From positions 62,001 through 126,000 of the forward strand of contig NZ_CAJXTC010000007.1 of assembly GCF_913060805.1 (NCBI RefSeq): a stretch of DNA of 64,000 nucleotides. The letters run 5' to 3'. Source of the DNA: an uncultured Draconibacterium sp. (GTDB taxonomy: Bacteria; Bacteroidota; Bacteroidia; Bacteroidales; Prolixibacteraceae). Made by a program: the position numbers and the translations under genes. Positions within the stretch are counted from its first letter, which is position 1. The number at the start of each line of letters is the position of its first letter. Positions 10,174-59,877 of the stretch are shown here, one piece after another. The notes under the pieces were generated by a model, which made no database searches, was not told where the DNA came from, and saw only the letters and a program-made list of their open reading frames with translations.

Positions 10174-10210
10174 AAAAAAACGAAATGGAAAGTGCACCAC
10201 CACCTTCCAT
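10174..10210 (-). terminator. Antisense-oriented terminator before first susC
   Basis: ATGGAAaGTG (10185-10194) pairs with CACcTTCCAT (10201-10210), 10-bp arms with one mismatch and a 6-nt loop. The T-tract is on the minus strand (complement of the A run at 10174-10180), so it would end a transcript running against the susC mRNA leader. A TAnnTTTG-like -7 box on the minus strand (10276-10269) overlaps the susC start codon, but no clear -33 box is seen. Confidence 0.55.
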
Positions 10211-10275
10211 CTCAGATCTGAATTTTTACGATAACAAAAAGAATAAAATTGTCAAATTCAAACCATCACAAAATT

Positions 10276-13200
10276 ATGGAAAAAAATCGAAAAATGGTTG
10301 GATCGGATTTTTTGTGTCCCGATCTAACAAAATTGATTAGAATTATGAAACTAACTAGCTTTTTGATATGTTTTGCTGTAGCCCAGGTTTTTGCGGTAAA
10401 TACTTACGCGCAAGTAACTCGTTTGTCGCTTGATATGAAAGGCGTTACAGTTAAAGATGTCCTATTTGAAATTGAAGGAAGTAGTGAATTTTACTTTCTC
10501 TATTCAAACAAACTTATAGACGTAAAACGAAAAGTTGATGTGAACATCAACAATAAAAAAATTGAAGATGTACTTAACGACTTATTTCTTGGAGAAGGTG
10601 TAAAATACCTCATCAATGATCGCCAAATTATTTTGAGTTCTGAAGATTTGCAATTTCGCGATTCTGATAACTTCTTACAGCAATCAAGGAAAGTAACAGG
10701 AACCGTAAAATCCGAAACAGGAGAAACGCTTCCCGGAGTAACTGTGGTTATTCAAGGAACAACAATTGGTACAGTTACAGATATGGACGGAAAATTTTCG
10801 CTGAGTGTTGAAAACAGTTCCCAGGTTCTAGTATTCTCGTTTGTGGGAATGGCAACTCAGGAAGTTTCGGTTGGTAGCCAAAACAATTTTTCGGTTGTTA
10901 TGCAATCGGAAGCAATTGGAATTGAGGAAGTAGTCGCCATTGGTTACGGAACTGTAAAAAAGAGCGACTTAACCGGTGCTGTGGGGGCAGTTAAGGGCTC
11001 GGTAGTGTCCGAACGCCAAACTACTCAGGTTTCGCAAGCTTTACAGGGAGCCATGGCAGGTGTTATGGTAACCCGCGATAATAGTGCGCCTGGAGCTAGC
11101 TCAACCATTCGAATCAGGGGGATTACAACAATCGGTGAGAGTAGCCCGCTTGTAATTGTTGATGGAGTCCCGGTTGGAAGTATAAACGATGTAAACCCGA
11201 ATGACATCGAAAATATTTCAGTACTAAAAGATGCAGCTTCAGCTTCAATATACGGTTCGAGAGCAGCTGCGGGAGTAATCTTGGTTACAACAAAACGTGC
11301 AAAATCGGGCGATCTGTCGTTGGATTATAATTTTGAATATGGTATTGAGAAACCTACAGAAATGGTTGATTATACTGATGCGGTTCGTTATATGCAAATG
11401 GTAAACGAGTTGCGTTGGAACGATAATGGAAATATTGAAGGTGGTGAATACCCAACATACACGCAGGATCTTGTGGACAATTATGCGTCGCTTAATGCTG
11501 AGAATCCTGACCAGTATCCTGATACTGACTGGTCGGCCCTGATATTGAAAGATAACGCACCACGTCAAAGTCATTCGATTGGTATTACTGCCGGATCGAA
11601 AGCCGTTAGAACCAAGGCAATTTTATCGTACGACAAAACAGATGGGTTATACATGGGGCGGAGTTACGAACGGCTGACAGCACGCTTTAACAACGATGTT
11701 AAAATAAATAACGCTTTGTCTGCTTCAATAGACTTTTACGCAAAGAGGTCTATTTCCAATAATCCGAGTAGAGATCCGATGTATAGCATGCGTATAGCTG
11801 CACCAGTTTATGCTGCTGTTTGGTCTAATGGACTGATTGCAGAAGGAAAAGCCGGCGGCAACATTTACGGAGAAATTAAAGAGGGAGGTTATATAACAAA
11901 TTGGTATAATCAGGTCGGTGGTAAAATTGCTTTAGACTTTACTCCGATTGAAGGACTAAAACTTTCAGCTGTTATTTCTCCGCGGTTCAATTACAACAAA
12001 GGAAAAGATTTTCAGAAAAAAGTAGAATATACTAACTACGATGATCCCAATACCTTTGTGGGAACTCTGGCTTATTCTACATCAACAAGTTTAACTGAAT
12101 CGCGTGATGATAGTTACCAGATAACAAAGCAGTTTATTGCAAATTACACAGAGTCTCTGAACGCGCATAATCTGAATCTGATGGCTGGTTATGAGGATTA
12201 CTCCGCATTTTATGAAGAATTGGGTGCCTCAAGCGATCAGTTTGAGCTATCATCATTCCCCTATCTTGACCTAGGAAATGAGAACTACCTAAGCAACAGT
12301 GGAAATGCATATGAGAATGCCTACCGTTCTTATTTTGGCCGTGTAATGTACAATTACAATAACAGGTATTTCGTACAGGGAAATATTCGTTACGACGGAT
12401 CATCTCGTTTTGCAAAAGATTACCGCTGGGGAGCTTTCCCATCCTTTTCGGCAGGTTGGGTAATTTCCGAGGAATCATTTATGCAGGATATTTCATTGTT
12501 ATCATTTCTAAAACTTCGTGCTTCTTGGGGATCATTAGGTAATGAACGTATTGGTAATTATCCATACCAGTCGACAATGGGATATGCACATGCACTTTTT
12601 TACCAGGGGCACGAAGTAGTTTCTGCTCAAACAGCAGCGCAGTGGGCTTATGCAATTGAGGATATCTCGTGGGAAACAACCGAATCGCTCGATTTTGGTT
12701 TCGATGCGGTTTTCTTTGATAACCGATTTCATGTAACGGCTGATTATTACAGGAAAAAAACAAAAGATATGTTACTCGATTTGGAGATTCCTGATTACAT
12801 CGGATTTGATAATCCGGATCAAAATACCGGAGAAATGAAAACTAAAGGCTGGGAGCTGGAGTTAAGCTGGAACGACCGTATTGGTGATTTCTCTTACTCC
12901 GTATCTGCTAACTTATCCGATTTTACATCTGAAATGGGCGATCTTGGAGGTATTCAATTCCTTGGCAGCCAGGTAAAATTCAAGGGTAGTGAATTCAACG
13001 AGTGGTACGGTTACATTTCAGATGGCTTGTATCAAAGGCAGGAAGAGGTGGATAATTCAGCCGTGCTGAATTCGGTTGTAGCTCCCGGCGATATAAAATA
13101 CAAAGATATCAGTGGACCGGATGGAGTGCCGGATGGTATTATCTCTTCAGATTATGACCGTGTGTTACTTGGAGGTTCATTGCCGCGCTACATGTACGGA

Positions 13201-15742: not shown

Positions 15743-16300
15743 ATGAGAAACTCAGATCAACTTATTTTAAACGAATTACGAAAGAAGAACAAACACGTTT
15801 TTGAGGCAATTTTTTACGAATATCATCAACCTTTGTTAAGGTTTGCCGAACACATTGTTTTTAATCGCGATGTGTGCGAAGATATCGTTCAATCAGTATT
15901 TATATCGCTCTGGGAAAATACAGATTCCATACATATTCATAAATCTTTACAATCATGGCTTTTTCAGGCCGTACGTTACAAAGGTCTTACATATCTGCGC
16001 GATCTTAATATCCACGACAAGCACAAGTTAATCTATCTTGAATACGAAATCTCTGAAATGATAGAATCGGAAAGCAGCGATACTTCAGAACTGGAAAAGA
16101 AAATAAGTAGCGCAATTGAAAACCTCCCTCCCGAAATGCAGAAAATATTTCGCTTAAAATATCTCGAAGGATTAAAAGTGAAAGAAATTGCCACCGAATT
16201 TCAGATTTCAGAAAACACCGTAAAGACCCAGCTAAAGCGCGCGAAACGCAACCTTCGGGCGCAACTTTCAAAGGTGTCATTTATCTACTTTTATTTTTAG
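15743..16300 (+). CDS. ECF sigma-70 factor, second PUL switch
   Basis: 185 aa. Region 2 at about 15-85 (FEAIFYEYHQPLLRFAEHIV, CEDIVQSVFISLWEN). Region 4 at about 115-170 (LPPEMQKIFRLKYLEGLKVKEI, then a HTH with SENTVKTQLKRAKRNL). A typical Bacteroidota PUL ECF factor, only distantly similar to the one at 8302, so the two switches are probably insulated. The FecR gene follows after 104 bp. ATG 15743 is the natural start. Confidence 0.92.
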   Translation: MRNSDQLILNELRKKNKHVFEAIFYEYHQPLLRFAEHIVFNRDVCEDIVQSVFISLWENTDSIHIHKSLQSWLFQAVRYKGLTYLRDLNIHDKHKLIYLEYEISEMIESESSDTSELEKKISSAIENLPPEMQKIFRLKYLEGLKVKEIATEFQISENTVKTQLKRAKRNLRAQLSKVSFIYFYF

Positions 16301-16404: not shown

Positions 16405-17541
16405 ATGAATAAAAAACGAAATATTGATTTTAGTCTGATCTGGAAAAAAATTCACCAGAATGAGTCTGACGACAGTGAGCTGAACGAGTGGTTAAATGGA
16501 TCGGAAAAGAACATAGCCTTTTTCAAAAATGCCAAAAGGTTTTATTACGGGGGATCAACATTTAAAACCAACCCGGTTTCTTCTGACGCCGCTTTCAAAA
16601 AACTTCGTACGGTAATTATGCGTCACCGTATTATTCAAATTGGGGCATCGGCAGCAGCAATTCTGGCAGTAGTATTTTCAGTTTCTATTCTGCTTAATAA
16701 AACGCACACCGAAGATTTTGTTTCAAGTGCAGAGATTACGCCGGGATCAAACAAGGCAGTTCTTGTGTTGAATAATGGTTCGGAGGTGAATCTTTCAGAG
16801 CGGCAGAAAGTGCTCTTAAAAGAGGAAGATACACAAATAACCAGTAATGGTAAAATGCTTGAGTATCATTCTGCAAAAAAGAAAAAAATACACAAAAAGC
16901 AAATCATTTATAACACATTAAAAGTGCCACGTGGAGGTCAGTTTTTTGTGGTCTTGTCTGACAGTACCTGTGTTTGGCTAAATGCAGAGTCAGAGCTTCA
17001 TTATCCGGTTACTTTTTCCGGTAAAAAAAGGGAAGTTACACTGGTTGGTGAAGCTTATTTTGAGGTTGCGAAAAATGAACATCAGCCCTTTATTGTAGAT
17101 TCTGAAAACCAGAAGATTGAGGTTCTGGGTACATCCTTCAACGTTTCGGCTTACGCAAACAACGAGTTTATAAAAACCACCCTTGTTGAAGGGAGTGTAA
17201 AGATCAACAGCTCTACGCAAGAGGTTTTCCTCGAGCCATCGCTTCAGGCAGTAGTCGATCCCAAAAATGGAAATACAGTTACACTGCCGGTAAAGACTGA
17301 ATTATATACGGGTTGGAAGGAGGGGAATTACTATTTCGAAAATGAAGCGATTGAAACCATCCTGAAAACCATCTCGCGGTGGTACGATTTTGAATACGAA
17401 TTTAAGAAACCGGCTGCAAAAAAGATGAGATTTACCGGAAGTATAAACAGGGAACAAGAACTGGAAAATATATTTAAAATTATTGAAGAAACTCAACAAA
17501 TTAAAATGACTGCCTATGAAAGAAAACTTGTGATTCATTAA
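16405..17541 (+). CDS. FecR-family anti-sigma factor, second PUL switch
   Basis: 378 aa. The cytoplasmic N-terminus (1-70) carries a WKKIHQNESDDSELNEWL sigma-binding-like region. One membrane segment lies at about 73-93 (IGASAAAILAVVFSVSILL). The FecR domain (about 165-270) contains PRGGQFFVVLSDSTCVWLN, GEAYFEVAKNEHQPF and LGTSFNVSAY; a C-terminal DUF4974 (about 300-378) begins NYYFENEAIETILKTISRW. Located between sigma and susC, it relays the SusC STN signal across the inner membrane. Eight bases after its stop comes a hairpin whose T-tract is on the opposite strand. Confidence 0.92.
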   Translation: MNKKRNIDFSLIWKKIHQNESDDSELNEWLNGSEKNIAFFKNAKRFYYGGSTFKTNPVSSDAAFKKLRTVIMRHRIIQIGASAAAILAVVFSVSILLNKTHTEDFVSSAEITPGSNKAVLVLNNGSEVNLSERQKVLLKEEDTQITSNGKMLEYHSAKKKKIHKKQIIYNTLKVPRGGQFFVVLSDSTCVWLNAESELHYPVTFSGKKREVTLVGEAYFEVAKNEHQPFIVDSENQKIEVLGTSFNVSAYANNEFIKTTLVEGSVKINSSTQEVFLEPSLQAVVDPKNGNTVTLPVKTELYTGWKEGNYYFENEAIETILKTISRWYDFEYEFKKPAAKKMRFTGSINREQELENIFKIIEETQQIKMTAYERKLVIH

Positions 17542-17576
17542 AAAAAAAAGCGGCAGATGCTGACATCATCTACCGC
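17541..17576 (-). terminator. Antisense-oriented terminator before second susC
   Basis: GCGGCAGATG (17550-17559) pairs with CATCTACCGC (17567-17576), one mismatch, 7-nt loop. The plus strand has a 9-A run before the hairpin (17541-17549), so the minus strand shows a canonical hairpin plus T9. It therefore terminates leftward transcription in the fecR-susC gap. A minus-strand TAAATTTG (17623-17616) overlaps the susC start codon, the same position as in the first unit. Confidence 0.65.
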
Positions 17577-17622
17577 CAAATACTTTTTAGAATAACCAAA
17601 AGATTAATTCCAAATCAAATTT

Positions 17623-20600
17623 ATGAAAAAAAATGAAGGAAAGGCTTCCCTTTTGGGGAGAAGCATGATTTTACGAACGAAGATTACATTACTCTTTGTA
17701 GCTCTTTTTGTAATGCAGGGTTTCTCCAGCGTGTACTCGCAAACCGAAATATTAAAGCTAACAAAAACAACAGGAACTATCAGTGAGATACTGGAAGCGA
17801 TTGACAGACAAAGCGAATTTCGTTTCTTTTATGCCGCTGATTTATTTGATGAAACCGGAGATATAGAAGTGGAAGAAACTGAGCTTACCATGGATGTTTT
17901 TCTGGGAAAATACATTGCACCACTGGGCTTTCATTATACTGTTACTGACCGAACCGTTATTATTCGTAAAAAGACCGAAGAGCCGGCGGAAACTAAATCT
18001 AAATTAAATGACATTGAGGAAACAATTCCGGTAAAGGGGGTTGTAAGCGATGATATAGGAGCACCACTTCCCGGAGTAACAGTAGTGGTTGTTGGTAGTA
18101 CCCGTGGAGTAATTACAGATATTGATGGAAAGTTTGAGATTGATGTGGAACCAACTGCAAAATTAAATTTCTCTTTTATTGGCATGACTGACCAGCAAAT
18201 TGACGTAAGTAACCGCTCAGTTATAAACGTAACACTTCAACAGAAATCAGAAGAACTGGATGATATTACAGTTGTAGCATTCGGCCGGCAAAAGAAAGAG
18301 AGTGTTCTGGCTTCAATTAGTACGATAAAAACAGAAGATTTAAAAGTGCCGTCGAGTAACCTTACGACTGCACTGGCAGGTCGGATATCAGGATTGATCT
18401 CTTATCAGCGAAGTGGTGAGCCGGGACAGGATGATGCCAGCTTCTTTGTGCGTGGTGTTACTTCTTTCTCGTATGCTTCCGGTCCGCTTATTTTGATTGA
18501 CGGTGTTGAAATGTCGTCATCGGATTTAGCTCGTTTGCAACCTGATGATATCGCCAGTTTTTCGATTATGAAGGATGCTGCTGCAACTGCACTTTATGGG
18601 GCGCGAGGAGCCAATGGTGTTATTCTGGTTACTACAAAAGAAGGTAAAGAAGGAAAAGCAACCATATCTTTTCGTTACGAAACCTCTTTTTCTATGCCGA
18701 CGCAGGAGGTTGATTTAGCCGATCCGGTTACATATATGAAGATGAATAATGAAGCTGTTCTGGCACGCAATCCCTTATCGGCCGTTCCGTATTCTTACGA
18801 GAAAATTGATAATACGATTGCCGGAACCAATCCTTACGTTTACCCGGCTACCGACTGGTATAACATGTTGTTTAAAAACTATACCATAAACCACCGAGCA
18901 AATTTTAATGTAAGTGGTGGTGGTAAAGTTGCTCGCTATTATATTGCCGGAACCTACAACCAGGATAATGGTGTTTTAAAAGTAGACCAAAACAATAATT
19001 TCAATAATAATATCGATTTAAAAAGGTATCTGCTACGCTCAAATGTCAATATTAATATTACAAAAACAACAGAAGCTGTTGTTCGACTGCACGGAACATT
19101 TGACGACTATACCGGGCCTATCGATGGTGGAACTTCATTATATAAAAAGGTAATGCGTTCAGACCCTGTTTTGTTTCCTGCCTATTTTGAGCCCGACGAG
19201 CAATATAGCCATGTTACTCATACTCTTTTTGGGAACTATGATCAAGGACAATACATAAATCCCTATGCCGATATGGTAAAAGGCTACAAAGATTATTCAA
19301 AATCAAAAATGCTCGCTCAATTTGAATTAAAACAGGATTTGAGTTTTGTAACGGAAGGCTTGAGTATTCGTGGACTTTTTAATACCACCCGCTACTCTTA
19401 TTTTGACGTTAGCAGATATTATAATCCCTTTTGGTATTCAGTCGCGAGCTACGATAAACCCACTGACACTTATGTCCTAACGCGATTAAATCCGGAAGAT
19501 GGAACCGAATGGCTTAGCTACGATGAAGGTGCTAAAATTATTTCTTCAACGACCTATGCCGAAGCAGCTATTAATTACGATAGAACCTTTGAAAAGCATA
19601 GTGTAAGTGGTTTGCTGGTTACGCAAATGAGAAATAGAATTGAGCCTAATGCTTCGACATTAGCACTTTCACTTCCGTCGCGAAACCTTGGGCTTTCAGG
19701 TCGTTTTACCTATTCGTATGACAGTCGTTATTTTACCGAATTCAATTTCGGTTATAATGGTTCCGAAAGGTTTGCCGAAAACGAACGTTTTGGATTCTTT
19801 CCATCCGTTGGTGCAGCATGGATAGTTTCAAACGAAGGATTCTGGAACGCGGATATCAGCAAAATCGTTAATAACTTAAAATTGAAGGCAACCTATGGTT
19901 TGGTTGGTAACGATGCAATAGGGGATGCTAACGATCGTTTTTTCTACCTGTCAGAGGTTAACCTTAATAATTCCGGAAGGGGTTTTACCTGGGGGGAAGA
20001 TTCCAAATATTCTGTTAATGGAGTTGGAACATCGCGTTATGCTAACGATCAGATTACTTGGGAAATATCGAAAAAGCTGAATACCGGAATTGAGCTTGGT
20101 CTATTTGATAAGCTTAATATTCAGGCTGATTTTTACACCGAGCATCGCACAAATATATTAATGGATCGTGCCGACATTCCGACAACAATGGGATTACAGG
20201 CTACGCCTCAAACAAATGTTGGAGAGGCAAAAGGTAAAGGGATTGATCTTTCGGCAGACTATCAGCATTCTATTAACAATGATTTCTGGATTACCGGTCG
20301 TGCCAATTTCACATATGCAACATCAAAATTTGAAGTTTACGAAGAGGTTGACAACACAAACACACCCTGGTTATCGCATGTGGGGCAGCCAATTTCGCAA
20401 ACCTGGGGTTATGTCGCCGAACGTTTGTTTATTGATGAGTACGATGTAATTAATTCTCCGACACAAACTTTTAGTGAGTATATGAGTGGCGATATTAAAT
20501 ACCGCGATATTAACGGAGACGGTCAGATAAACTCCTTGGACAAAGTGCCGATTGGGTATCCTACTCAGCCTGAAATTGTTTACGGTTTTGGTATTTCTAC

Positions 20601-21072
20601 CGGATACAGGAACATTGATTTTTCTTGCTTTTTCCAGGGACTTGCAAGAGAATCGTTCTGGATAGATGCATATAACACTGCTCCATTTATTGATACTGAC
20701 GGCAGCTCAAGTACCATATCTAAAAATTCATTGCTACAAGTTTATGCCGATAATCATTTTTCAGATGATAATCCTGACATTTATGCTTTGTGGCCTCGTT
20801 TATCGGACCAATACATTTCTAACAATACACAAACCAGTACCTGGTTTATGAGAAATGGTTCTTTTTTGCGACTGAAATCGGTTGAGTTCGGGTACACACT
20901 ACCTAAAATGCTAACTGAACAGATTGGTATTACAAATCTTAGATTTTATTTCTCGGGAACCAACCTGTTAACCTTTAGCAAATTCAAGCTTTGGGATCCT
21001 GAAATGGCAGGAAACGGATTGGGCTATCCAATTCAGAAGATATTTAATCTTGGTGTTCAGGTTTCATTCTAA
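17623..21072 (+). CDS. SusC-like TonB-dependent transporter with STN domain (PUL unit 2)
   Basis: 1149 aa. Signal peptide at about 18-40 (ILRTKITLLFVALFVMQGF). STN domain at about 50-118 (ISEILEAIDRQSEFRFFYA). Carboxypeptidase-regulatory-like domain at about 140-215 (KGVVSDDIGAPLPGVTVVVV). Plug at about 220-340 (DDITVVAFGRQKKESVLASI, LILIDGVEMSS, GANGVILVTTKEG). The barrel runs to the C-terminal IFNLGVQVSF. As in unit 1, the STN domain indicates sigma/FecR-coupled induction. SusD begins 12 bp later and two more surface lipoprotein genes follow, so this is the main import locus of the PUL. Outer membrane. Confidence 0.94.
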   Translation: MKKNEGKASLLGRSMILRTKITLLFVALFVMQGFSSVYSQTEILKLTKTTGTISEILEAIDRQSEFRFFYAADLFDETGDIEVEETELTMDVFLGKYIAPLGFHYTVTDRTVIIRKKTEEPAETKSKLNDIEETIPVKGVVSDDIGAPLPGVTVVVVGSTRGVITDIDGKFEIDVEPTAKLNFSFIGMTDQQIDVSNRSVINVTLQQKSEELDDITVVAFGRQKKESVLASISTIKTEDLKVPSSNLTTALAGRISGLISYQRSGEPGQDDASFFVRGVTSFSYASGPLILIDGVEMSSSDLARLQPDDIASFSIMKDAAATALYGARGANGVILVTTKEGKEGKATISFRYETSFSMPTQEVDLADPVTYMKMNNEAVLARNPLSAVPYSYEKIDNTIAGTNPYVYPATDWYNMLFKNYTINHRANFNVSGGGKVARYYIAGTYNQDNGVLKVDQNNNFNNNIDLKRYLLRSNVNINITKTTEAVVRLHGTFDDYTGPIDGGTSLYKKVMRSDPVLFPAYFEPDEQYSHVTHTLFGNYDQGQYINPYADMVKGYKDYSKSKMLAQFELKQDLSFVTEGLSIRGLFNTTRYSYFDVSRYYNPFWYSVASYDKPTDTYVLTRLNPEDGTEWLSYDEGAKIISSTTYAEAAINYDRTFEKHSVSGLLVTQMRNRIEPNASTLALSLPSRNLGLSGRFTYSYDSRYFTEFNFGYNGSERFAENERFGFFPSVGAAWIVSNEGFWNADISKIVNNLKLKATYGLVGNDAIGDANDRFFYLSEVNLNNSGRGFTWGEDSKYSVNGVGTSRYANDQITWEISKKLNTGIELGLFDKLNIQADFYTEHRTNILMDRADIPTTMGLQATPQTNVGEAKGKGIDLSADYQHSINNDFWITGRANFTYATSKFEVYEEVDNTNTPWLSHVGQPISQTWGYVAERLFIDEYDVINSPTQTFSEYMSGDIKYRDINGDGQINSLDKVPIGYPTQPEIVYGFGISTGYRNIDFSCFFQGLARESFWIDAYNTAPFIDTDGSSSTISKNSLLQVYADNHFSDDNPDIYALWPRLSDQYISNNTQTSTWFMRNGSFLRLKSVEFGYTLPKMLTEQIGITNLRFYFSGTNLLTFSKFKLWDPEMAGNGLGYPIQKIFNLGVQVSF

Positions 21073-21084
21073 AAAACAGAAAAA

Positions 21085-23019
21085 ATGAAAAAGTTAAAAA
21101 TTACTGTAATATTATTTATTCTGCTTTTCAACTTTGCGTGTTCCGATTATTTAGATGTGGTTCCGGATAATGTCCCCACAATCGATCATGCTTTTTTGGA
21201 CAGAACCAGTGCTGAGAGATATTTAGCAACTTGTTATACGTATTTTCCAAATTTATCCGATCCTGCTGGCGATCCGACCATTCTTGGTAGTGATGAATGG
21301 TGGGCGATCGAAGAGGATCAGTACTTGGGGCGTTCAGCAAATTTTGCTGGACTAAAAATTAAAAAAGGTGAGCAAAATTCGAACAGCCCTTTCTTTAATG
21401 CCTGGGATGGCTACAATGGTGGAAGAGCCTGTTACAGGGCCATTCGCGATTGTAATGTCTTCCTCGAAAATGTCCACAAGGTAGGAAATGACTTAAGCGA
21501 TGCCGAAAAAAGCCGGTGGATTGCCGAAGTAAAAGTGTTAAAAGCGTATTATCATTTTTACCTGATGAGAATGTATGGACCGATACCGTTGGTTAAAGAG
21601 AATTTGCCAATTTCTGCCGGTATTGATGAGGTACGGGTTTACAGAGATTCTTTTGAGGAAGGAATCGATTATATTGTTGGTCTTCTGGAAGAGGCTACTC
21701 CCGACTTACCATTGGAAATTCTGAATGTAAGTACCGAGCTGGGACGAATAACAAAGCCTATAGCATTGGCGTTAAAAGCTCAGATATTGGTTACAGCTGC
21801 AAGTCCTCTGTTTAATGGCAACTCTGACCTTGTGGGTATGGTTGATAGCCGTGGGATGCAGTTGGTAAATTCTGATTACGATCCTGCAAAATGGGTAAGG
21901 GCTGCCACTGCATGTAAGAATGCAATTGATATTTGTTTAATGGCAGGACATGAGCTTTATGAGTTCACCAAGCAAACCAACATCTCTGATTCAACAAAAC
22001 GTTTAATGTCACTACGACATGTGGTTACCGACCGGTGGAACAAGGAGATTATCTGGACGGAGTCAAAATTGAATATGGATGCCTATCAGTATTCTACTAC
22101 TCCGTTCTTTACAGTCGAAGAAGCTCAGTGGGGTCATGTTCACCCATTTATGTATCCTACTTTACGAATGGCAGAGCTATTTTACTCGAGTAATGGTGTT
22201 CCGATTGATGAAGACACGCAATTTGATTACCAGGGAAGGTTCGATACTGAAGCTGCTCCCGAAGAATCGAAATATTACATCCAGCCTGGTTACGAAACTG
22301 CAAAATTGAATATTGGAAGGGAAACAAGGTTTTATGCCAACCTGGCATTTGATGGAGCTACATGGTTTGGAAACGGAAGGTTTAAAGATGTTGGAGATGG
22401 AAACATCAACGAGCAACCCTGGATTATTCGCACCAAAAAAGGTGAGCCACAGGGAAAAACATCAAATCTGAGGTATTCCTCATCAGGTTATTGGGTGAAA
22501 AAAACAAGTCATTTTGAAAGTGTGAGTTCATCGTCATCTTCAAATGTGAGAGTGCGGTCTACATTCCCGATTATTCGCCTGGCCGATCTGTACTTGTTAT
22601 ATGCTGAAGCGCTCAACGAGTCGCTTGATGCCCCTAATCATGAAGTTTATGAATATATCGACAGAGTGCGTGAACGTGCAGGATTACCGGGAGTTGTTGA
22701 AAGTTGGCAAAATGCATCACGCTATCCATCAAAGCCCACCTCTAAAGAGGGAATGCGAGAAATAATTCAGCGTGAAAGAATGATTGAACTTGCATTTGAA
22801 GGGAAACGCTTCTGGGATATTCGCCGTTGGAAAACTGCCCTGGAGTGGTTAAATCAGCCAATCAGAGGTTTAAATCCCGACGGGGAAACAGCTGCGGAGT
22901 TCAATTCGGTAAGGGTAATTTATACACCACATTTTTCAACAAAAGATTACCTGTTCCCAATTCGACAGTATAACATGAGGGTTAATCCTAACTTGATCCA
23001 AAATCCATACTGGCAATAA
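21085..23019 (+). CDS. SusD/RagB-like glycan-binding lipoprotein (PUL unit 2)
   Basis: 644 aa, on the long side for SusD. Lipoprotein signal with cysteine near residue 19 (LFILLFNFACSDYLD). SusD-like features: SAERYLATCYTYFPN, helical repeats, ADLYLLYAEALNE, RERMIELAFEGKRFWDIRRW and the ending LFPIRQYNMRVNPNLIQNPYW. It is paired with the SusC gene 12 bp upstream and would bind the same glycan at the surface. The greater length probably reflects larger loops; I see no extra domain. Confidence 0.94.
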   Translation: MKKLKITVILFILLFNFACSDYLDVVPDNVPTIDHAFLDRTSAERYLATCYTYFPNLSDPAGDPTILGSDEWWAIEEDQYLGRSANFAGLKIKKGEQNSNSPFFNAWDGYNGGRACYRAIRDCNVFLENVHKVGNDLSDAEKSRWIAEVKVLKAYYHFYLMRMYGPIPLVKENLPISAGIDEVRVYRDSFEEGIDYIVGLLEEATPDLPLEILNVSTELGRITKPIALALKAQILVTAASPLFNGNSDLVGMVDSRGMQLVNSDYDPAKWVRAATACKNAIDICLMAGHELYEFTKQTNISDSTKRLMSLRHVVTDRWNKEIIWTESKLNMDAYQYSTTPFFTVEEAQWGHVHPFMYPTLRMAELFYSSNGVPIDEDTQFDYQGRFDTEAAPEESKYYIQPGYETAKLNIGRETRFYANLAFDGATWFGNGRFKDVGDGNINEQPWIIRTKKGEPQGKTSNLRYSSSGYWVKKTSHFESVSSSSSSNVRVRSTFPIIRLADLYLLYAEALNESLDAPNHEVYEYIDRVRERAGLPGVVESWQNASRYPSKPTSKEGMREIIQRERMIELAFEGKRFWDIRRWKTALEWLNQPIRGLNPDGETAAEFNSVRVIYTPHFSTKDYLFPIRQYNMRVNPNLIQNPYWQ

Positions 23020-59716: not shown

Positions 59717-59877
<161 letters not shown>

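Follow-up and report, generated by a model that had tools for sequence, protein, structure and literature searches.

A predicted antisense RNA module facing FecR-linked susC genes of the Bacteroidia

Known antisense RNAs and the fecR-susC gap

Polysaccharide utilization loci (PULs) with DonS-like antisense RNAs are typically controlled by an extracytoplasmic function (ECF) sigma factor and its anti-sigma factor. CopA and Sok, known from plasmids and toxin-antitoxin systems, are short, fully complementary RNAs with a terminator hairpin that target the leader of the facing mRNA. The founding study of DonS and of other cis-antisense RNAs linked to PULs in Bacteroides is said to be that of Cao et al. 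(2016, J Bacteriol 198:2410). According to later papers, DonS of B. fragilis acts as a repressor of its PUL through a mechanism given as unknown, ten further antisense RNAs of DonS-like orientation are present in B. thetaiotaomicron, five of them validated by Northern blot, and a later count for the same species reached 32 PUL-associated antisense RNAs whose correlation with susC was both negative and positive (PMC7366714, PMC11697453, PMC10994844, PMC9723704). One of these papers further describes FopS small RNAs of B. thetaiotaomicron which, with RbpB, block translation of SusC-type importers near the start codon (PMC11697453). Here, we analysed a window of 64,000 nucleotides (nt) from an uncultured Draconibacterium sp. 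(Prolixibacteraceae; contig NZ_CAJXTC010000007.1) that contains two ECF/FecR-linked susC units, and we describe a candidate antisense RNA gene in the fecR-susC gap of the second (unit 2).

The gap comprises the 81 bases from 17542 to 17622, between the end of fecR at 17541 and the susC ATG at 17623. The candidate gene lies on the minus strand and faces the 5' end and leader of the susC homologue of a PUL, and the sigma and FecR genes directly upstream of susC (Pfam) represent the ECF sigma/anti-sigma-controlled PUL arrangement. We consider it likely that a small antisense RNA of about 70 nt is encoded in cis in this gap and acts on the susC leader, and by analogy with the described RNAs it probably represses susC. 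This reading builds on signals, a strand preference, a pattern of conservation and an association with FecR-linked susC genes, all shown at the sequence level. As described, DonS and the predicted RNA are both short and both divergently encoded to the susC homologue of their PUL. Features in common with DonS are a putative housekeeping-type promoter of its own (exact -7 box, -33 element not found) and a rho-independent terminator (hairpin and T10). DonS-type RNAs measure 78-128 nt as cited, compared with about 70 nt predicted here from an inferred 5' end and more in several paralogues; the hosts differ (Bacteroides versus Prolixibacteraceae), and the likeness is one of description, not of compared sequence. 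FopS RNAs, as described, likewise pair near the start codon of a SusC-type importer but are multicopy and act in trans via a shared seed, whereas the RNA predicted here is antisense to its own neighbour. It differs from CopA and Sok, to which it is again likened by description and not by sequence, in being tied to ECF/FecR-controlled importers.

An antisense RNA of this kind is already known in Bacteroides; what is added here is a hairpin shared class-wide and a promoter locked to the start codon. Our literature search found no description of the shared hairpin, of its spread through the class or of such a module outside Bacteroides; the search did not cover Cao et al. 2016 and we make no claim of priority. 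We lean slightly towards the view that the locus is one copy of an old antisense module of the Bacteroidia, combining a terminator core with a start-codon-locked promoter at many ECF/FecR susC genes (mostly in its own family) of free-living and gut species, with importer-specific stem variants and perhaps an mRNA hairpin after the start. If true, each glycan importer would have a private RNA off-switch. PUL antisense RNAs have been described in gut Bacteroides. The presence of the module, with its shared hairpin, between FecR and SusC genes of hosts ranging from Prolixibacteraceae to Chitinophaga, Pedobacter and Flagellimonas suggests that it is a general layer in the control of Bacteroidota glycan import. 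The analysis also yields a search model and the exact bases to mutate.

Terminator hairpin, promoter box and strand

The predicted antisense terminator consists of a minus-strand stem-loop at 17549-17577 with 11 pairs and a loop of 7 (GGCGGTAGATG-ATGTCAG-CATCTGCCGCT, read from 17577 to 17549), whose pairs show two-sided changes in relatives, followed by a T10 tract at 17540-17549 on the same strand, which runs into the fecR stop codon (17539-17541). As the first T belongs to the closing pair of the stem, nine Ts remain free, in agreement with the hairpin and T9 that the initial annotation had placed on the minus strand of the gap. The minus-strand fold has an energy of -17.7 kcal/mol (z -4.6) which none of 200 shuffles equalled. 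Between 8000 and 27000, 22 terminator-like sites were found compared with a shuffle mean of 14.1 (sd 3.8); in this list, apparently sorted by G-C pairs, the unit 2 hairpin is first and the unit 1 hairpin (10181-10214, minus strand; also matched by a covariance model) second. An Rfam scan of the window gave no match above the gathering score in the gap, its sole match being a tRNA at 59798-59871.

The -7 box of the putative antisense promoter, TAAATTTG, is an exact TAnnTTTG at 17616-17623 on the minus strand, positioned so that its first T lies opposite the A of the susC ATG. The box pattern scan placed the corresponding TAATTTTG of unit 1 at 10269-10276 on the minus strand, over the susC ATG at 10276. 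Both the box over the ATG and the common geometry of the two units had been claimed beforehand, and both are borne out. Read on the plus strand, the pattern [CT]AAAnnTATG occurs at the first ATG of only 2 of the 36 window open reading frames (ORFs) of at least 150 aa, both of them susC (10276 and 17623), and at 13 of 2119 ATGs of any kind. At 34 FecR-linked starts from this genome and its family, aligned as minus-strand TAnnTTTR, the TA is present in 34/34. This set leaves out five of the 29 family starts: L096, L108 and L112 on account of an apparently wrong start, and L115 and L117, which lack the box. The count is favoured by these omissions; the wider count of 109 junctions below retains all five.

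The two strands were compared using a symmetric test that takes the best inverted repeat and scores G.T and A.C alike. Such a repeat was present in 60 of 67 box-positive units, with 65 G.T wobble cells, paired only in a minus-strand RNA, versus 3 A.C cells, paired only in a sense RNA. Counted by unit, 47 favoured the minus and 3 the sense strand (p 3.7e-11), and the T-richer tail was on the minus strand in 56 and on the sense strand in 3 of 59 decided units. Non-FecR susC controls (16 of 43 with a repeat) gave wobble cells of 19:19 and tails of 4 minus versus 10 sense, while all 85 units without box or without FecR together gave 38 minus and 28 sense wobble cells. Because wobbles and T tails both favour the minus strand, the test shows selection on what would be a minus-strand RNA.

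The start of the susC mRNA has structure of its own. Folds at +6 to +55 had a mean z of -2.25 in the 67 box-positive units versus -0.67 in the 43 non-FecR susC genes (p 2e-6, one-sided), and for the minus strand of the same stretch the means were -1.32 and -0.26. An inverted repeat scoring at least 14 follows the ATG in 47/67 and 30/43 genes, respectively (medians 17 and 15; here 17644-17664, susC +21 to +41), and the wobbles of this post-ATG repeat are sense-biased in both sets (25:7 units, controls 15:3).

Distribution and hairpin family

Of the 43 SusC genes in the genome above the TIGR04056 cut-off, 41 have the N-terminus within the match and 2 do not; a FecR gene directly precedes 10 of the 41. 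Minus-strand terminators at least as stable as -14.5 kcal/mol lie 72-116 nt before the ATG in 9/10 FecR-linked genes and in 0/31 others, where the strongest minus-strand site reached -10.1. For the wider comparison, FecR_C loci were taken from family, order and phylum samples and SusC relatives from the family; 5 of 88 FecR loci without a forward ORF after fecR and one without an ATG (L068) were dropped, and as many as four in-frame ATGs per gene were checked for the box. The terminator scans of the own genome, the FecR loci and the 109 junctions applied one rule to both strands, just as the strand test scored both alike, while the hairpin-anchored units and an energy comparison began from minus-strand matches and are not strand-blind. 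All counts include paralogues and orthologues and are thus non-independent.

Box and terminator, respectively, were present in 8 and 9 of 10 own FecR-linked junctions, 24 and 26 of 29 from the family, 14 and 12 of 16 family STN-type SusC genes, 13 and 13 of 25 in the order sample and 8 and 13 of 29 in the phylum sample. Within the latter, 14 junctions lie outside the class and gave no box and one minus-strand terminator (L134), all other positives being among the 15 class junctions. Non-FecR genes yielded 1 box and 1 terminator among the 31 of this genome and 1 and 0 among 12 non-STN family members, never together. Overall, the box was seen at 67/109 FecR/STN starts versus 2/43 non-FecR susC starts. 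Both signals occurred at 61 of the 109 junctions, the box only at 6, the terminator only at 12 and neither at 30 (Fisher p 1.3e-11, uncorrected for relatedness); the order and phylum samples alone gave 18, 3, 8 and 25 (p 1.5e-5). Terminators at these junctions were on the minus strand in 73 and on the sense strand in 7 cases, with 3 sense terminators at the 43 other susC genes. This co-occurrence and the minus-strand bias of terminators, wobbles and T tails considerably strengthen the antisense RNA reading proposed in the initial annotation.

A further sample came from a probable Bacteroides genus (f93/g164), assigned from Rfam Bacteroides-1 matches in two of its genomes (one above the cut-off), such as a B. 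ihuae control also gives. One of 30 loci was dropped (no forward ORF), leaving 29 junctions with 20 minus-strand terminators and one sense terminator. In nine junctions the box lies on the ATG, and each of the nine has a minus-strand terminator. So has each of five more (L325, L326, L334, L338, L354), in which an exact TAnnTTTG occurs at -53 to -62 without an overlying ATG; comparison of these junctions indicates that the putative promoter box can leave the start codon and retain its hairpin. In these five, the box placement looks as if N-terminal codons had become leader. Three other junctions have an exact TAnnTTTG elsewhere (L330 at -8, L350 at +42, L348 at +60), and therefore single matches can be chance.

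The hairpins of units 1 and 2 belong to one family with the core GGGARRTG-loop-CAYTTCCC. Across 59 units drawn from this genome, its family and its order, the stem keeps its GG and CC in 47-51, and other positions vary with their partner. A stem model of 40 units showed two-sided changes at 11/11 pairs and 96.5% paired cells versus 43-53% when slid; the 40 were hand-picked from the 59, with 19 omitted (some for register, some needlessly), and 13 phylum units were unused. A covariance model, R2, was built from 29 units, none from this genome, after two more were dropped for bad alignment. Searching the own genome of 5.48 Mb, R2 found 13 places at E <= 1, the best 8 of which are FecR-SusC junctions, and ranked the unit 2 hairpin first (E 1.2e-5) and the unit 1 hairpin fifth (E 0.0023); having scored 150 of 4022 candidates, it did not recover one of nine own sites (L048) at E <= 1. 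The two hairpins had been called non-homologous, which does not hold given the common core and this ranking by a model free of own sequences, and the antisense case is therefore stronger. The hairpin and box signals are not chance: the hairpin heads the terminator list in 19 kb and ranks first genome-wide by the model, and among the 36 ORF starts of the window the box is confined to the two susC genes. An earlier model, R1, matched mostly its own training rows in this genome and was not used as evidence.

R2 is insensitive at a distance. In the phylum sample it matched at E <= 0.001 in 9 of 99 genomes including the own one, and the 15 places listed comprise 4 own, 4 beside FecR (three in genome G080, one in G066) and 7 not beside FecR. 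In the genus taken as Bacteroides from its Rfam Bacteroides-1 matches, 10/30 loci gave matches at E <= 1. By eye, the loops of SusC-linked hairpins among the listed matches are frequently TTGNCG or the reverse complement, CGNCAA; many loops not linked to SusC differ, and this could reflect a kissing-loop constraint.

We also scanned one genome each of 84,980 species with a hairpin-only, gene-blind pattern, GGGARRTGN{5,8}CAYTTCCCNNTTTTT, which returned at least 119 loci. Among the 119 listed, going by their record titles, 80 are from Bacteroidota and 39 from others, and 43/80 versus 0/39 are FecR/SusC junctions. These 43 consist of 36 loci at most 400 nt upstream of a SusC match, 35 of them with FecR on the other side, and seven beside FecR where SusC is cut off or matches further in; four of the seven look by eye like STN-type SusC starts. 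The box sits on the ATG in 38 of the 43 listed junctions. The remaining 37 listed Bacteroidota loci have it in two (L229 from Arenibacter, L239 from Pedobacter) and lack it in 35, and none of the 39 listed loci from elsewhere has SusC, FecR or the box. One of these 39 is unidentified and one is from Kapabacteria, which some taxonomies place in Bacteroidota. Junction hosts among the matches include Chitinophaga, Pedobacter, Parapedobacter, Flagellimonas, Croceivirga and Niabella, as well as Saccharicrinis, Puteibacter, Draconibacterium, Prolixibacter and a Tannerella metagenome-assembled genome. In L229 and L239 the reading frame behind hairpin and box looks decayed, with no intact susC directly after; possibly these are remnants of decaying susC genes.

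Proposed mechanism, alternatives and neighbouring genes

From the box and the terminator we infer a start point, expression, pairing and repression as follows. RNA polymerase carrying the housekeeping sigma factor would start on the minus strand near 17611, directed by the -7 box over the susC start codon, and would end at the hairpin and T tract (17577-17540), giving an RNA of about 70 nt (17541-17611, minus strand, 5' end +/-3 nt). This RNA would be fully complementary to the greater part of the susC leader, between about -13 and the fecR stop codon, and would pair with the susC mRNA produced under the ECF sigma/FecR pair. Pairing may hinder ribosome binding beside the AUG and expose the duplex to RNase, so that SusC would stay low until the sense transcript outnumbers the antisense RNA.

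Several observations weigh against this picture. A TTTG is absent from the -33 position here and none is conserved among the 34 FecR-linked starts, confirming the weakness of the -33 box noted in the initial annotation; GG at +23/+24 was seen in the alignment instead, and a consensus sigma-70 scan is uninformative in this phylum. At the eighth position of the box in these starts, A outnumbers G (19:15). Within the genome, one FecR-linked susC (L024, G000:C10) is alone in having neither box nor terminator, and another (L052) does not have the box pattern. The order and phylum samples hold 54 FecR junctions, of which 36 are without one or both signals and 25 have neither. Finally, repression is not universal among the described RNAs, because some antisense/susC pairs of B. 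thetaiotaomicron correlate positively.

Transcriptional interference is a possible, if unlikely, alternative: activity of the antisense promoter across the susC start, rather than the RNA, would restrain sense transcription, and the terminator would only shield fecR and the sigma gene from read-through. A terminator directly at the fecR stop, poor conservation between box and hairpin and, in many units, a box at a fixed register to the start codon would all suit such an arrangement. However, a plain insulator needs no shared stem, yet the GGGARRTG/CAYTTCCC core recurs across families and class. It seems rather unlikely that the ECF sigma promoter of susC also resides in the hairpin arms, with one sequence then serving as terminator for the antisense and promoter for the sense RNA. 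The sense arm GGGAAATG resembles the FecI-type -35, GGAAAT, and when 59 units were anchored on the hairpin no conserved sense promoter was found outside it, nothing else being conserved. The mRNA start at -77 derived for BT_3983 from PMC11697453 also falls approximately in the hairpin zone, most of 72 units having the loop between -55 and -108. Against this, no -10 element can be distinguished from the stem, and the strand bias of the wobbles shows selection at the RNA level irrespective of any further role.

A-rich sequence upstream of the ATG is common in Bacteroidota, and the AAATTTATG box contains the ATG, so it could be only a context for SusC translation initiation, with the terminator halting stray antisense transcription. 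We regard this as improbable given the rarity of the box at non-FecR starts and its tie to the terminator; further, the box is not merely a translation signal, because five of the 29 probable-Bacteroides junctions keep the hairpin with the box away from the ATG. Very improbable, in our view, is a sense element (an attenuator or a structure of the susC 5' leader) or a DNA dyad bound by a regulator, even though the inverted repeat can fold as sense RNA too (-11.1 kcal/mol, z -2.5). Selection on a sense RNA should retain G.U pairs of that strand, and with a dyad no strand preference is expected, in contrast to the wobbles and T tails observed, and sense terminators are present in few junctions compared with minus-strand ones. 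The same counts disfavour a hairpin that is part of the sense transcript only, the counter-case named in the initial annotation.

Unit 2 itself runs on the plus strand in the order ECF sigma, fecR, susC, susD. The sigma factor gene (15743-16300) matches Pfam Sigma70_r2 and Sigma70_r4_2, the anti-sigma factor gene fecR (16405-17541) matches FecR and FecR_C and has a PF16344 hit, the sense target susC (17623-21072), encoding a TonB-dependent glycan importer, matches TIGR04056 with 1022 bits as well as Plug and CarbopepD_reg_2, and susD (21085-23019) matches SusD_RagB. All 10 FecR-linked SusC proteins of the genome have 18-25 aa before the signal peptide core, compared with a median of 8 in the 31 others, of which 7 reach at least 18. 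The putative antisense promoter lies within or beside these extra N-terminal codons (17623-17690 here).

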